A stretch of 64,000 nucleotides of DNA, from positions 992,001 through 1,056,000 of the forward strand of contig NZ_CP104040.1 of NCBI RefSeq assembly GCF_025152745.1. Direction: 5' to 3'. Positions 6,447 through 62,210 of this stretch are shown piece after piece. Position numbers and translations under genes: made by a program. The first letter of the stretch is position 1. Every line of letters begins with the position of its first letter. The stretch comes from Rhizobium sp. WSM4643 (GTDB taxonomy: Bacteria; Pseudomonadota; Alphaproteobacteria; Rhizobiales; Rhizobiaceae). The notes under the pieces are model-generated. The model was not told where the DNA came from, did not search any database, and worked only from the letters and a program-made list of their open reading frames with translations.

Positions 6447-6550
6447 TACAGCGCCGCGCGTCTTTTCAGGCGCGCAAAGGGCGGTGTAACAGTTTGAATT
6501 TTTGCATAATTCCTTGAACCGATTCCGATTTAAGGAATTATGCGACAGCG
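6447..6550. repeat. Rhizobial mosaic intergenic repeat (GCCGCGCGTCTTT ... GGAATTATGCG type)
   Basis: About 105 bases starting ACAGCGCCGCGCGTCTTTTC, with GGCGCGCAAAGG, then a palindrome around ATTCCTTGAACCGATTCCGA. Near-identical copies are at 53541-53645 and 55068-55170. It lies in the 209-base gap after rpsU. Confidence 0.75.
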
Positions 6551-8202: not shown

Positions 8203-8344
8203 GCCCCTCATCCGGCTGCCGCCACCTTCTCCCCGTAAACGGGGCGAAGGGGATATGCCGCGGCCTCTCCGTTCCTCGCTAACCTCTCGCGGGGCACGTC
8301 CCCTCTCCCCGTTTTTACGGGGAGAGGGCTAGGGTGAGGGGCAG
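8203..8344. repeat. RIME-type intergenic element
   Basis: Composite of CCCCTCATCCGGCTGCC, CACCTTCTCCCCG with its complement, and CCTCTCCCCG...CGGGGAGAGG GTTAGGGTGAGGGG-like end. Fills most of the 343-base gap between ohr and the MarR gene. It contains an unoccupied CCCCTCATC site (8204-8212) like the one used by the IS110 elements. Confidence 0.75.
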
Positions 8345-8431
8345 CCATCGGCTTGCTCTATTCGGCCGTTACCTGTCCGCTGTGACGAAGTCGGCGTTCA
8401 GCCTGGCCGGCTTCGGCGTTTTTATCGTCAT

Positions 8432-11076: not shown

Positions 11077-11204
11077 GTGTGGCCCCCTTCCTGCTGCCGC
11101 CACCTTCTCCCCGAGGGGAGAAGAGACTCGTGGCGACGTCTCGATTCCCTCTTCTCCCCAGCGGGGAGAAGGTGCCCGTAGGGCGGATGAGGGGGCTGCA
11201 CGGT
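11077..11204. repeat. RIME-type intergenic element
   Basis: GTGCCGTGTGGCCCCCTTCCTG, two copies of the CTTCTCCCC...GGGGAGAAG hairpin and GGTGCCCGTAGGGCGGATGAGGGGG. This is an uninterrupted relative of the repeat split by the second IS110 copy. Confidence 0.75.
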
Positions 11205-26048: not shown

Positions 26049-26203
26049 GGATATGGATGTCTCCGTTGGCAAGGCGAACTGGCGTTGCGATCGGGTTGAA
26101 ATCCATTGCGGCACACATCCTGTTAAAATGGTCGATGGCAGATAATTTAGGGAATGAAGGCTGAAGGTTCAAGGCAAAGGGCCAATCTAGCGGCAGGCAG
26201 CGA

Positions 26204-26309
26204 TCTTGCTCCCCTTCTCCCCAGCGGGGAGAAGGTGGCCCGAAGGGTCGGATGAGGGGGCCACACGGCACTCCGCAACGGCCTTTCGCTGGCCGCTCAA
26301 GGCACCCCC
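26204..26309. repeat. RIME-type element, left part (interrupted by IS110 copy 1)
   Basis: CTTCTCCCCAGCGGGGAGAAG, GGTGGCCCGAAGGGTCGGATGAGGGGG and further repeat DNA up to the C-run where the IS begins. Confidence 0.65.
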
Positions 26310-26329
26310 CTTGCATGTTCAAACTGCAT

Positions 26330-26495
26330 CCGTTGATGATGGGTGCGACCCCTGGGGGATGGCCATCCCCCAGGGGTCGGACGGGCGGGACCGTAACCCC
26401 CTTGGCGTGAACCGGGGATGAGCCTGGTCCGCCCGTCCTTCGCGTTTGTCCTGAACAGATAGTGGGGAGCAGGTCCCGTATGCAAGGCAAGGTAT
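26330..26495 (+). ncRNA. Candidate bridge RNA of IS110 copy 1
   Basis: A perfect 17-bp-arm palindrome (26346-26379) is followed by a stem GGACGGGCGGGACC (26379-26392) / GGTCCGCCCGTCC (26426-26438) enclosing a loop. The loop holds ACCCCCTT (26396-26403), matching the target's left side, and GGATGAG (26416-26422), complementary to CTCATCC on its right. Further on, ACAGAT (26455-26460) matches the IS right end and ATGCAAG (26480-26486) is complementary to CTTGCAT at its left end, around a GGGA/TCCC hairpin. This is the two-loop target/donor layout known for IS621. Ends are approximate. Confidence 0.65.
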
Positions 26496-26512
26496 CGTCC
26501 GAACGCACCGCG

Positions 26513-27466
26513 ATGGCGACAGTTTATGTCGGCATCGATGTCTGTAAAGAGTGGCTGGACATTCATCTGCATCCTCTCGGCCGCAGTTTTCGGGTGACCA
26601 ACGACACGGCCGGCCTGCGCCGCCTCAAGCGGGAGCTCGATGCGCTTGACCAGATGCCGCGCTCGGCGCTGCGTATCGTCATGGAAGCGACCGGCAAGTG
26701 GCATCGCGCCGTCCAGCGCTCGCTGCATGCCGATGGCTTTTACGTGTCGGTCGTCGACCCGCTGCGCGCCCGGCTGTTTGCCAAAGCCTGCGGCTTTCTC
26801 GCCAAGACCGATCGGCTCGATGCGCGGTTTCTGGCCATCATGGGAGAAGCCCTCAAGCCCGCACAGACCCCACCGCCGGACCAAGCGCTGGAAGCCCTGC
26901 AGGAACTGGTCAATGCCCGATCTGCCGCCAATGGCGAACGCACCGCCCTGTCCAACCGGATGAAGACGGCCGTGACCGCCTTCCTGCGCAAGGAACTGAC
27001 GCGCCGGCTTGCCGCGCTCGACACCCATATCGCAAGACTGGACGCCGAGATCGAGCGCAGCATCTGCGCCGATCCCGAGATGCGCCGCCGCCTCGACATC
27101 CTCATCTCCATTCCCGGCATCGGAGCCGTCACCGCCGCAAGCCTGATCGCTGGCCTTTGCGAACTTGGCGCCTGCTCCGGCAAGCAGGCCGCCATGCTGA
27201 CCGGCCTTGCGCCGATTGCCTGCGAAAGTGGCGAGCGGGCCGGACATCGCTCCATCAGGGGCGGACGCCCAGCACCCAGGAACGCCATCTACATGGCCGC
27301 CCTGTCCGCCTCCCGTCACAACCCGGACCTCGCACGCTTCGCCGCAAGGCTGAAGAAAGTCGGAAAACCCAATAAGGTCGTCCTCGTCGCCGTCATGAGA
27401 AAGCTCATCGTCCTGGCAAACACCCTCATCACCAAAAACCGCATCTGGACACCAAATCCACCTTGA
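26513..27466 (+). CDS. IS110-family transposase (recombinase), copy 1
   Basis: 317 residues from ATG 26513. GTG 26462 and ATG 26480 are open upstream in frame but fall within the bridge-RNA donor loop. DEDD RuvC-like residues: Asp9 (VGIDVCKEW), Glu58 (MEATGKW), Asp100 and Asp103 (KTDRLDARF). The C-terminal Transposase_20 domain has SIPGIGAVTAASLIAG and Ser239 in IACESGERAG, the position of the catalytic serine. All five sit two residues before their IS621 counterparts. Differs from copy 2 by Ala128 versus Thr. Confidence 0.92.
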   Translation: MATVYVGIDVCKEWLDIHLHPLGRSFRVTNDTAGLRRLKRELDALDQMPRSALRIVMEATGKWHRAVQRSLHADGFYVSVVDPLRARLFAKACGFLAKTDRLDARFLAIMGEALKPAQTPPPDQALEALQELVNARSAANGERTALSNRMKTAVTAFLRKELTRRLAALDTHIARLDAEIERSICADPEMRRRLDILISIPGIGAVTAASLIAGLCELGACSGKQAAMLTGLAPIACESGERAGHRSIRGGRPAPRNAIYMAALSASRHNPDLARFAARLKKVGKPNKVVLVAVMRKLIVLANTLITKNRIWTPNPP

Positions 27467-27481
27467 CACCAAACACAGATG

Positions 27482-27529
27482 CTCATCTGCCTGCCGGCAT
27501 CTTCTCCCCGAGGGGAGAAGAGACCCAGC
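27482..27529. repeat. RIME-type element, right part (interrupted by IS110 copy 1)
   Basis: CTCATCTGCCTGCCGGCATC and CTTCTCCCCGAGGGGAGAAG, continuing the repeat broken at 26310. Confidence 0.65.
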
Positions 27530-32324: not shown

Positions 32325-32526
32325 CGCGGCCGCCCCTCATCCGCCTGCCGGCACCGTCTGCCGCAACGTCTCGATTCCCTCTTCTCCCCAGCGGGGAGAA
32401 GGTGCCCGTAGGGCGGATGAGGGGGCCGGCGAAGCCGGTCTTTCCAACAATGTTCATGCGGAATTCGACCGCGCTCTCGTCGGCTTGGCGGGATAACTAA
32501 GATGAGAGGGCGTGCCGTGTGGCCCC
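32325..32526. repeat. RIME-type elements left of IS110 copy 2
   Basis: One whole element (32331-32435; CCCCTCATCCGCCTGCCGGC ... CTTCTCCCCAGCGGGGAGAAG ... GGCGGATGAGGGGGCC) and then GTGCCGTGTGGCCCC, the left part of a second one cut at 32527. Confidence 0.7.
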
Positions 32527-32546
32527 CTTGCATGTTCAAACTGCAT

Positions 32547-32712
32547 CCGTTGATGATGGGTGCGACCCCTGGGGGATGGCCATCCCCCAGGGGTCGGACG
32601 GGCGGGACCGTAACCCCCTTGGCGTGAACCGGGGATGAGCCTGGTCCGCCCGTCCTTCGCGTTTGTCCTGAACAGATAGTGGGGAGCAGGTCCCGTATGC
32701 AAGGCAAGGTAT
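32547..32712 (+). ncRNA. Candidate bridge RNA of IS110 copy 2
   Basis: Identical in the recognised parts to the copy 1 RNA: palindrome 32563-32596, target-loop guides at 32613-32620 and 32633-32639, donor guides at 32672-32677 and 32697-32703. Here the right target side is CTCATCC, pairing with seven bases of the guide GGATGAG. Confidence 0.65.
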
Positions 32713-32729
32713 CGTCCGAACGCACCGCG

Positions 32730-33683
32730 ATGGCGACAGTTTATGTCGGCATCGATGTCTGTAAAGAGTGGCTGGACATTCATCTGCATCCTCTCGGCCG
32801 CAGTTTTCGGGTGACCAACGACACGGCCGGCCTGCGCCGCCTCAAGCGGGAGCTCGATGCGCTTGACCAGATGCCGCGCTCGGCGCTGCGTATCGTCATG
32901 GAAGCGACCGGCAAGTGGCATCGCGCCGTCCAGCGCTCGCTGCATGCCGATGGCTTTTACGTGTCGGTCGTCGACCCGCTGCGCGCCCGGCTGTTTGCCA
33001 AAGCCTGCGGCTTTCTCGCCAAGACCGATCGGCTCGATGCGCGGTTTCTGGCCATCATGGGAGAAGCCCTCAAGCCCGCACAGACCCCACCGCCGGACCA
33101 AGCGCTGGAAACCCTGCAGGAACTGGTCAATGCCCGATCTGCCGCCAATGGCGAACGCACCGCCCTGTCCAACCGGATGAAGACGGCCGTGACCGCCTTC
33201 CTGCGCAAGGAACTGACGCGCCGGCTTGCCGCGCTCGACACCCATATCGCAAGACTGGACGCCGAGATCGAGCGCAGCATCTGCGCCGATCCCGAGATGC
33301 GCCGCCGCCTCGACATCCTCATCTCCATTCCCGGCATCGGAGCCGTCACCGCCGCAAGCCTGATCGCTGGCCTTTGCGAACTCGGCGCCTGCTCCGGCAA
33401 GCAGGCCGCCATGCTGACCGGTCTTGCACCGATTGCCTGCGAAAGTGGCGAGCGCGCCGGACATCGCTCCATCAGGGGCGGACGCCCAGCACCCAGGAAC
33501 GCCATCTACATGGCCGCCCTGTCCGCCTCCCGTCACAACCCGGACCTCGCACGCTTCGCCGCAAGGCTGAAGAAAGTCGGAAAACCCAATAAGGTCGTCC
33601 TCGTCGCCGTCATGAGAAAGCTCATCGTCCTGGCAAACACCCTCATCACCAAAAACCGCATCTGGACACCAAATCCACCTTGA
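32730..33683 (+). CDS. IS110-family transposase (recombinase), copy 2
   Basis: 317 residues, same catalytic set as copy 1 (Asp9, Glu58, Asp100, Asp103, Ser239), with Thr128 in place of Ala128. Intact, so both copies may be active. Confidence 0.92.
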   Translation: MATVYVGIDVCKEWLDIHLHPLGRSFRVTNDTAGLRRLKRELDALDQMPRSALRIVMEATGKWHRAVQRSLHADGFYVSVVDPLRARLFAKACGFLAKTDRLDARFLAIMGEALKPAQTPPPDQALETLQELVNARSAANGERTALSNRMKTAVTAFLRKELTRRLAALDTHIARLDAEIERSICADPEMRRRLDILISIPGIGAVTAASLIAGLCELGACSGKQAAMLTGLAPIACESGERAGHRSIRGGRPAPRNAIYMAALSASRHNPDLARFAARLKKVGKPNKVVLVAVMRKLIVLANTLITKNRIWTPNPP

Positions 33684-33698
33684 CACCAAACACAGATG

Positions 33699-33840
33699 CT
33701 CATCCGACCCTTCGGGCCACCTTCTCCCCGAGGGGAGAAGAGGAGATGCCGCACCCTCTTCGTTCCCTCGTCCCGTTTACGGGGGCCGAAAGACGGGTCG
33801 AGACAAGTGGCTCGACCCCGGTGGATTAGGGGCAGCCATC
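33699..33840. repeat. RIME-type element, right part (interrupted by IS110 copy 2)
   Basis: CTCATCCGACCCTTCGGGCC, CTTCTCCCCGAGGGGAGAAG and a divergent right end GTGGATTAGGGGCAGCC. Confidence 0.65.
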
Positions 33841-41516: not shown

Positions 41517-41740
41517 CCTGGCTCCCTCTTCTCCCCTCGGGGAGAAGGTGCCCGTAGGGCGGATGAGGGGGCCGCACGGCAGAACATTTACTATTGCCCT
41601 TCGCTTGCGCTCAGCGCATTCGCGGCTTTGCCGCTCACCCCCTCATCGCCTCGCTATCGCTCCGGCACTTCTCCCCGCTGGGGAGAAGAGGACAGTGGCG
41701 GCGCTTTGCTCCTCCCCTACTCGCCACGAGCGGGCAGGGC
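41517..41740. repeat. Pair of RIME-type elements
   Basis: CTTCTCCCCTCGGGGAGAAGGTGCCCGTAGGGCGGATGAGGGGGCCGC on the left and, after a short spacer, CACCCCCTCATCGCC ... CTTCTCCCCGCTGGGGAGAAG in the opposite orientation. Both contain unoccupied CCCCTCATC-type IS110 targets. Confidence 0.7.
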
Positions 41741-49693: not shown

Positions 49694-49836
49694 CGCCCCT
49701 CATCCGCCTGCCGGCACCTTCTCCCCGCTCGCGGGGAGAAGGGATATGCCGCGACGTCTCTATTGCCTTCCACCGTTGCTTGAGGCACGTCCCCTCTCCC
49801 CGTCAGAACGGGGAGAGGGTTAGGGTGAGGGGCAGC
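49694..49836. repeat. RIME-type element
   Basis: CCCCTCATCCGCCTGCCGGC (unoccupied IS110-type target 49696-49704), CTTCTCCCCGCTCGCGGGGAGAAG and CCCTCTCCCCGT...ACGGGGAGAGGGTTAGGGTGAGGGG. Fills much of the 331-base gap before nadE. Confidence 0.75.
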
Positions 49837-53540: not shown

Positions 53541-53645
53541 CTACAGCGCCGCGCGTCTTTTAAGGCGCGCAAAGGACGCTTTAACACATTGAAATCTGCA
53601 TATTTCCTCAAATCGGTTCCGATTTGAGGAAATATGCGGCAAGCG
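53541..53645. repeat. Rhizobial mosaic intergenic repeat
   Basis: TACAGCGCCGCGCGTCTTTT ... CAAATCGGTTCCGATTTGAG ..., same family as 6447-6550 and 55068-55170. The rest of the gap to 53946 shows no supported gene. Confidence 0.75.
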
Positions 53646-55040: not shown

Positions 55041-55067
55041 GCATTCCCCTCAGACAAACGGTAGCAT

Positions 55068-55170
55068 TACAGCGCCGCGCGTCTTTAGACGCGCAAAGGA
55101 CGTTGTAACACTTTGAATTGCCGCATAACTCCTTAAGTCGATTCCGGTTTAAGGAATTATGCGGCAGAAC
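55068..55170. repeat. Rhizobial mosaic intergenic repeat
   Basis: ACAGCGCCGCGCGTCTTTAG ... TTAAGTCGATTCCGGTTTAAGG ..., third copy of the 6447-6550 family, upstream of the TauE/SafE gene. Confidence 0.75.
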
Positions 55171-62064: not shown

Positions 62065-62076
62065 TAGGCCGACTGA

Positions 62077-62210
62077 GCAATTCCAGCAAAAGTGTGCAGC
62101 GGTTTTGCGCCCGGAATTGCTCAACAAACGACAGCAATTCCAGCAAAAGTGTGCAGCGGTTTTGCGCCCGGAATTGCTCAACAAACGACAGCAACTCCAG
62201 CAAAGGTGCG
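62077..62210. repeat. 57-base tandem repeats between two cytochrome genes
   Basis: Units start at 62077, 62134 and 62191 (partial). Each has a palindrome with GCAATTCCAGCAAAAG and CCGGAATTGC arms, the same family as the element at 7386-7428. Confidence 0.85.

Follow-up and report, generated by a model that had tools for sequence, protein, structure and literature searches.

Two copies of an IS110-group element lie in the 64,000-nt stretch of the Rhizobium sp. WSM4643 genome analysed here (hereafter the window), each interrupting a palindromic repeat at the same position, and the question raised by this locus is what leads the element there. Earlier work has described bridge RNAs and the loops within them, CT cores, promoters at the junction and targeting of REP sequences (available text of PMC11208160, Durrant et al. 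2024, and of PMC11208158, 2024) and natural as well as artificial reprogramming (available text of PMC11187229, 2024). IS110 elements in REP sequences are also on record, including ISRm19 (IS110 family) of Sinorhizobium meliloti with 4/4 copies, which is likened to the present element, as sitting in rhizobial REP sequences, by its published description only (available text of PMC1525189, Tobes and Pareja 2006). We consider it highly probable (about 93%) that the element described here is an IS110-group member with a left-end bridge RNA that targets a rhizobial palindromic repeat and, through its donor loop, pairs with the ends of the element once these are joined. Feature coordinates are collected in Table 1.

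Copies, ends and target repeats

The host genome (G000; 6.44 Mb in four contigs) gave 10 matches to a 204-base left-end query, nine of them scoring as identical and one nearly so; contig 1 carries nine of the copies and contig 4 the tenth. It contains 10 transposase frames, which share 99–100% identity and are free of stops. The junctions read CCCC-CT-TGCATG...ACAGATG-CT-CATC in all 10 copies, and the palindrome CTTCTCCCC...GGGGAGAAG is found on the right flank of each, with a mismatch in L011. The first-pass annotation had reported two copies at one repeat position with CT at every junction; this holds for both near-identical window copies and for all 10 genome copies. The extent of the element had to be corrected to 1,172 bp, because ACAGATG precedes the right CT. 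Its non-coding ends are long on the 5' side (170 nt before the ATG) and short on the 3' side (15 nt past the stop).

Unoccupied target sites are numerous. The sequence CCCCCTCATCNG has 79 unoccupied matches in the genome (control, 1), and the exact 13-mer GCCCCCTCATCCG occurs 61 times, compared with 0 for the same letters reversed. The 72 sites on contig 1 include 23 neighbouring pairs less than 250 nt apart, and because 22 of these pairs are inverted, many sites are the two arms of one repeat. The earlier suggestion that many unoccupied repeats lie in the window is borne out by five exact CCCCCTCATC sites, against 0.27 expected, two of which (26251 and 32416) are still-open arms beside the IS copies.

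The joined flanks of copy 1 match across the junction in seven relatives. In G014 (91%) the match is gapless at the junction and the orthologous unoccupied site reads ACCCCCCTCAACTGCC; G031, G075 and G070 keep ACCCCCTCATCTGCC intact at this site with extra bases upstream, G067 has ACCCCTCATCTGC, and in G036 and G028 the core region of the site is divergent. The insertion is clean: only CT is common to element and target, and there is no further target duplication.

The target repeat may be the RIME (Rhizobium-specific intergenic mosaic element), the name given in the first-pass annotation. Being repeated, palindromic and from a rhizobial genus, it fits RIME by character. RIMEs are rhizobial intergenic repeats (available text of PMC2573895), and a search of the available papers returned none joining Rhizobium, RIME and IS110.

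Other repeats were also seen in the window. An intergenic repeat, GGGGAGAGGG...TAGGGTGAGGGGCAGC, lies at 8250-8345 and 49741-49836, and an apparent variant of it holds the relative L059 of G078. A hairpin repeat rich in GC, GCGCCGCGCGTCTTT...GCGCAAAG, is present in three copies (6447-6498, 53542-53593 and 55066-55117), and a stretch resembling it adjoins L029. A perfect 57-bp tandem duplication is located at 62076-62189.

Table 1. Positions of the element copies, their predicted RNA parts and the target sites in the window
Feature	Position	Strand	Remarks
IS110-group element, copy 1	26310..27481	+	1,172 bp, left core CT through ACAGATG; CT of the right core at 27482-27483
IS110-group element, copy 2	32527..33698	+	right core CT at 33699-33700
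Interrupted palindromic repeat, right part, at copy 1	27482..27521	+	
Interrupted palindromic repeat, right part, at copy 2	33699..33742	+	
Predicted bridge RNA, copy 1	26326..26487	+	approximate ends, placed by the junction promoter (5') and the right donor guide (3')
Left target guide, CCCC+CT	26397..26402	+	target-binding loop
Right target guide, GGATGAG	26416..26422	+	complement of CTCATCC
Left donor guide, ACAGAT	26455..26460	+	equals the element's right end
Right donor guide, ATGCAAG	26480..26486	+	complement of left end CTTGCAT; the relatives H1-H5 have the transposase annotated from this ATG
Guide region, copy 2	32614..32703	+	copy 1 coordinates + 6,217
Guides, copy 2	32614 (left target), 32633 (right target), 32672 (left donor), 32697 (right donor)	+	
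IS110 transposase/recombinase, copy 1	26480..27466	+	328 aa; Pfam domains, IS621 alignment
Transposase, copy 2	32697..33683	+	Pfam domains
TTGACA, -35-like half	27463..27468	+	completed only by end joining; holds transposase stop TGA
CATGTT, -10-like half	26314..26319	+	spaced 17 nt from TTGACA after circularisation; agrees with TATAAT at 3 of 6 positions
Unoccupied exact target CCCCCTCATC	11186-11195	-	
Unoccupied exact target CCCCCTCATC	26251-26260	-	partner arm near copy 1
Unoccupied exact target CCCCCTCATC	32416-32425	-	partner arm beside copy 2
Unoccupied exact target CCCCCTCATC	41562-41571	-	
Unoccupied exact target CCCCCTCATC	41638-41647	+	

Recombinase and predicted bridge RNA

The recombinase matches PF01548 (DEDD; 67.7 bits, cut-off 29) and PF02371 (58.8 bits, cut-off 21.3). 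Two solved relatives, IS621 and ISCro4, were found at E <= 0.001, and IS621 is the better of them (E 4.9e-34). Residues D20, E69, D111, D114 and S250 each line up with their counterpart in IS621, and we take these to be the catalytic ones. S250 is part of GLAPIACESG and is the serine of the G--P----SG motif as worded in the available text of PMC11187229. The label 'programmable recombinase' given by the first-pass annotation is supported by this homology and would apply by analogy.

The left end (191 nt) is predicted to fold at -99.4 kcal/mol, compared with -76.8 +/- 4.4 for shuffled sequences (z -5.1). Because no Rfam family matches the window at gathering score, the RNA was modelled from relatives. 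When 21 distinct left ends were aligned, the 58 pairs of the fold were paired in 98.0% of cells, and 18 pairs changed on both sides, against 8.4 +/- 1.1 in shuffles, none of 500 of which reached this number; kinship among the aligned rows inflates such counts. When partners were slid by 1–3 columns, the pairs changed on both sides dropped to 2–4. The covarying pairs are in the two 5' hairpins (3/6 and 11/14) and the target-loop stem (4/14). Among the 21 left ends none occurs in the donor-loop stems, the target loop's small hairpin or the terminal stem, and the donor-loop fold thus rests on conservation only. The left-end fold also joins the right donor guide to the first 9 nt of the element, a pairing of consequence only if these 9 nt are transcribed. 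Covariance modelling of the 5' end across homologs, proposed with the original annotation, thereby yielded a conserved RNA fold in which a target loop is followed by a donor loop.

All four guide motifs (CCCCCT, GGATGAG, ACAGAT and ATGCAAG) are at the places where the loops had been read by eye (Table 1). In 20,000 dinucleotide-preserving shuffles of the left end minus its first 10 nt, with the target pair spaced 10–44 nt apart, the target guide pair arose 34 times, the donor pair 0 times and both pairs together 0 times. Two details of the original reading stood only in part. The left loop does resemble the target, but at most of the element's own sites the contiguous match is only 6 nt (CCCCCT); and the left donor guide matches the 6 nt ACAGAT but does not cover the core in the element's own clade, where GT replaces CT.

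Because ends, site specificity, covarying RNA, guide–target match and the junction promoter geometry described below agree, the assignment of the element as a new member of the bridge-RNA family (IS110 group, IS621-like) is well supported from its sequence. As far as the available text on IS621 of E. coli goes, the two systems share a DEDD + PF02371 recombinase, a long left end, a target loop followed by a donor loop, a CT core, guides to the left-bottom and right-top strands, a promoter at the junction of the ends and host palindromic repeats as targets, but the element here targets a rhizobial repeat. Transcription, RNA–protein binding, circle formation and catalysis are carried over from IS621 by analogy. 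Excision by the DEDD/serine recombinase would release a circular form of the element, whose joined ends would create a promoter, TTGACA-17-CATGTT, transcribing both bridge RNA and recombinase. The donor loop (ACAGAT; ATGCAAG) would pair with these joined ends, ACAGATG-CT-TGCATG, and the target loop (CCCC-CT; GGATGAG) with both strands of the repeat edge GCCCC-CT-CATCCG, and recombination at CT would place the circle in an empty repeat.

Guides and targets among relatives

We scored each loop against the left target (6 nt + CT) and the right target (CT + 5 nt), comparing an element's own targets with those of others, for 20 elements with both flanks readable and one copy per group. The own score was 256, compared with 207.9 +/- 5.8 (maximum 237) under permutation. 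The left half alone gave 127 vs 104.6, the right half alone 129 vs 103.2 and a reduced set of 12 elements 150 vs 119.2; in each of these comparisons 0/100,000 permutations reached the own score, a p that is not a strict probability because elements and copies are related. In the first run, with 18 elements, own exceeded the mean against others in 17/18 cases on the left and 18/18 on the right; the exception was G636 on the left (own 5 of 8, mean 5.35 against others' targets). L069 and L091 were added after that run. The right score of L030, the element's own paralog, is not blind, because repeat and guide were both known when its right CT boundary was set.

A search was also made for targets that bear no relation to the loops. 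The relatives' non-RIME sites mostly match their own loops, with poor fits among the 20 confined to L069 (left 5 of 8, right 4 of 7), L091 (5 and 5) and the left side of G636. Mapping of insertions to CCCC-CT-CATC, another of the proposed checks, placed 10/10 genome copies there, and relatives with different loops lie in correspondingly different targets.

Elements without a readable end (L085, L088, L090, L070, L072, L073 and the G816 contig-end pieces), partial or degenerate ones (L039, L042, L044-L046, L048 and L081), L111-L113, whose ends were not worked out, and extra copies of represented guides were left out of this test. In G816, contigs 46, 75, 50 and 78 end in bridge-RNA pieces (L087, L097, L101 and L105); multi-copy IS110 elements are thus probably where this draft assembly is broken. 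The Ciceribacter-type group was represented by L047, which fits at -4; three of the five sites of the group (L034, L044 and L045) do not, and all five were counted in the tabulation of that position. At left position -4, across 39 sites, guide C goes with target C in 20 cases and G in two, and guide G with target G in 10 and C in seven (Fisher p 0.0014, not a strict value since sites were counted by eye and copies are related). Among the relatives' sites with mismatches are L032 (left CCACCAC), L066 and L077 at -4, and 7/17 guide-G sites.

Individual relatives illustrate how guides and targets change together. ISMno29, from plasmid pMNOD02 of Methylobacterium nodulans, has 52% amino acid identity, an alignable left end and the same donor ends, but differs in its target guides (TCTCCCT-CT and GGGAAAG) and correspondingly in its target (GCTCCCT-CT-TTCCCGG); no relative of its protein was found among viral contigs. 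G734, from another family of the same order, carries at least six copies, whose guides are CACC-CT and CGGGAGAG. Its sites read CT-CTCCC on the right in 6/6 scored cases and the left side CACC-CT in 4/6, with TCTCCCC-CT and AACCCT-CT at the remaining two. The four CACC-CT sites are within a different palindromic repeat, GGCGCC...CTCTCCC.

A second IS110 element is present in the WSM4643 genome in two copies (L029 and L030; G000 C1:2698322-2699233 and 2520005-2520916) and is 44% identical. It has guides TCATC-CT and CCTCAG, sits at CTCATC-CT-GAGG in another palindromic repeat, and its reading frame seems to take its stop TGA from the core T and the target GA.

Palindromic repeats at 10/10 of the element's own sites might instead mean that the transposase protein itself recognises a RIME-like palindrome, with the loop matches being incidental or remnants of captured flanks, an idea put forward for REP-targeting transposases ahead of the 2024 work; recognition by transposases in general was argued in the available text of PMC1525189 (2006). 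However, the loops track targets across the 20 elements, and insertions lacking the CTTCTCCCC palindrome on the right were found (L032, L066/L076, L053/L079 and L077). L066/L076 and L053/L079, which share about 65% protein identity and the same right guide, use the same plasmid site, GCCC-CT-CATCC, without this palindrome. We therefore regard recognition by protein alone as very unlikely. (In L076 and L079 this plasmid site is beside a cold-shock gene.) Because palindrome-free insertions exist and two elements share one such site, it looks as if a short guide-matched sequence, not the RIME as such, determines insertion. The original proposal that the RIME family is the natural target thus stands insofar as 10/10 own insertions are at the same repeat position, but the determinant itself appears to be narrower.

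Still less probable is that the left-end RNA only holds down transposase translation, as a leader or attenuator would, without guiding insertion. The start codon, preceded by GGAG in the donor-loop region, does lie within the last stem-loop region, but such a leader would leave the two-strand target and donor matches and their co-variation unexplained. Spread by ordinary homologous recombination between RIMEs instead of guided insertion is scarcely credible, for although the copies are near-identical and the repeats share sequence, ends and insertion base are exact in 10/10 copies with differing flanks, the orthologous unoccupied site is intact and relatives' copies outside the repeat keep the same ends. 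These three explanations were rejected on guide–target co-variation, two-strand matches and exact ends.

Predicted junction promoter, start-codon overlap and implications

For an element mobilised through a bridge RNA, joining of the ends would bring the two promoter halves together. A TTGA[C/T]-17 nt-[C/T]AT hexamer arrangement is present in 28/28 tabulated joined ends, with 3–5 of 6 matches to TATAAT; the hexamer of the window element, CATGTT, is weak (3 of 6). These 28 distinct junctions include two alternative left ends of L084 and many that are near-identical, and elements without TTGA, such as the element's own paralog, are outside the set, since only junctions with TTGA were sought. The two parts vary in length from one subfamily to another, the left being longer where the right is shorter, and the 17-nt spacing stays constant. 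Such constancy is what would be predicted, as a matter of geometry only, for a promoter that arises when the element circularises. A promoter scan of the inserted state (26100-26520) returned no promoter-like site. IS621 (L126), read by eye, is alike in having TTGCAG-17-TATTAT.

The right donor guide ATGCAAG opens with the transposase ATG, and public annotation starts the gene there in 5/5 records (H1-H5). In 21/21 distinct subfamily sequences with ATGCAAGG, the frame from the guide ATG enters the conserved start of the recombinase domain (an unrelated match, L088, was set aside, and L039 is without the motif); a stop falls within the first 80 codons in three of them (L036, L048 and L081). L036, L037, L042, L051, L080 and L083-L086 lack the ATG that comes second in frame in the window copy. 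At the other end, the TGA stop is inside the TTGA box in 6/7 more distant relatives (L070-L075, not L069). The element differs in these respects from IS621, in which the counterpart of this guide, TTTGCAAGG, occupies 563-571 and the gene is annotated from 583 (L126); likewise, its stop lies in the -35-like box and its right end 15 nt past the stop, compared with about 105 nt in IS621 (by eye). In the available text, the term 'start codon' is absent from PMC11208160 and PMC11208158 and occurs once in PMC11187229, in the methods.

Tentatively, and with rather low confidence, we suggest that, in this lineage of Alphaproteobacteria, bridge RNA and recombinase message share bases such that binding of the donor loop by recombinase or donor DNA would block translation. 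If this were true, guide use and protein synthesis would be mutually exclusive and copy number would therefore be self-limiting.

The seekRNA systems ISEc11 (IS1111 family) and ISEc21 (IS110 family) resemble the present element in having an RNA from a non-coding region that matches both target strands; natural reprogramming has been reported, and in the IS110 types this RNA region is upstream, whereas in ISEc11 the RNA is downstream of the gene, and the targets of these systems differ (available text of PMC11187229).

The present element extends this group with a bridge-RNA system of a rhizobial genus that seems intact, occurs in multiple copies and has natural targets at hand: in one genome, 10 sites are occupied and CCCCCTCATCNG has 79 unoccupied matches. 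The overlap of its guide with the start codon would also make it a compact variant, and its relatives, with changed guides and changed targets, form a natural series for how guides and host repeats may follow each other.
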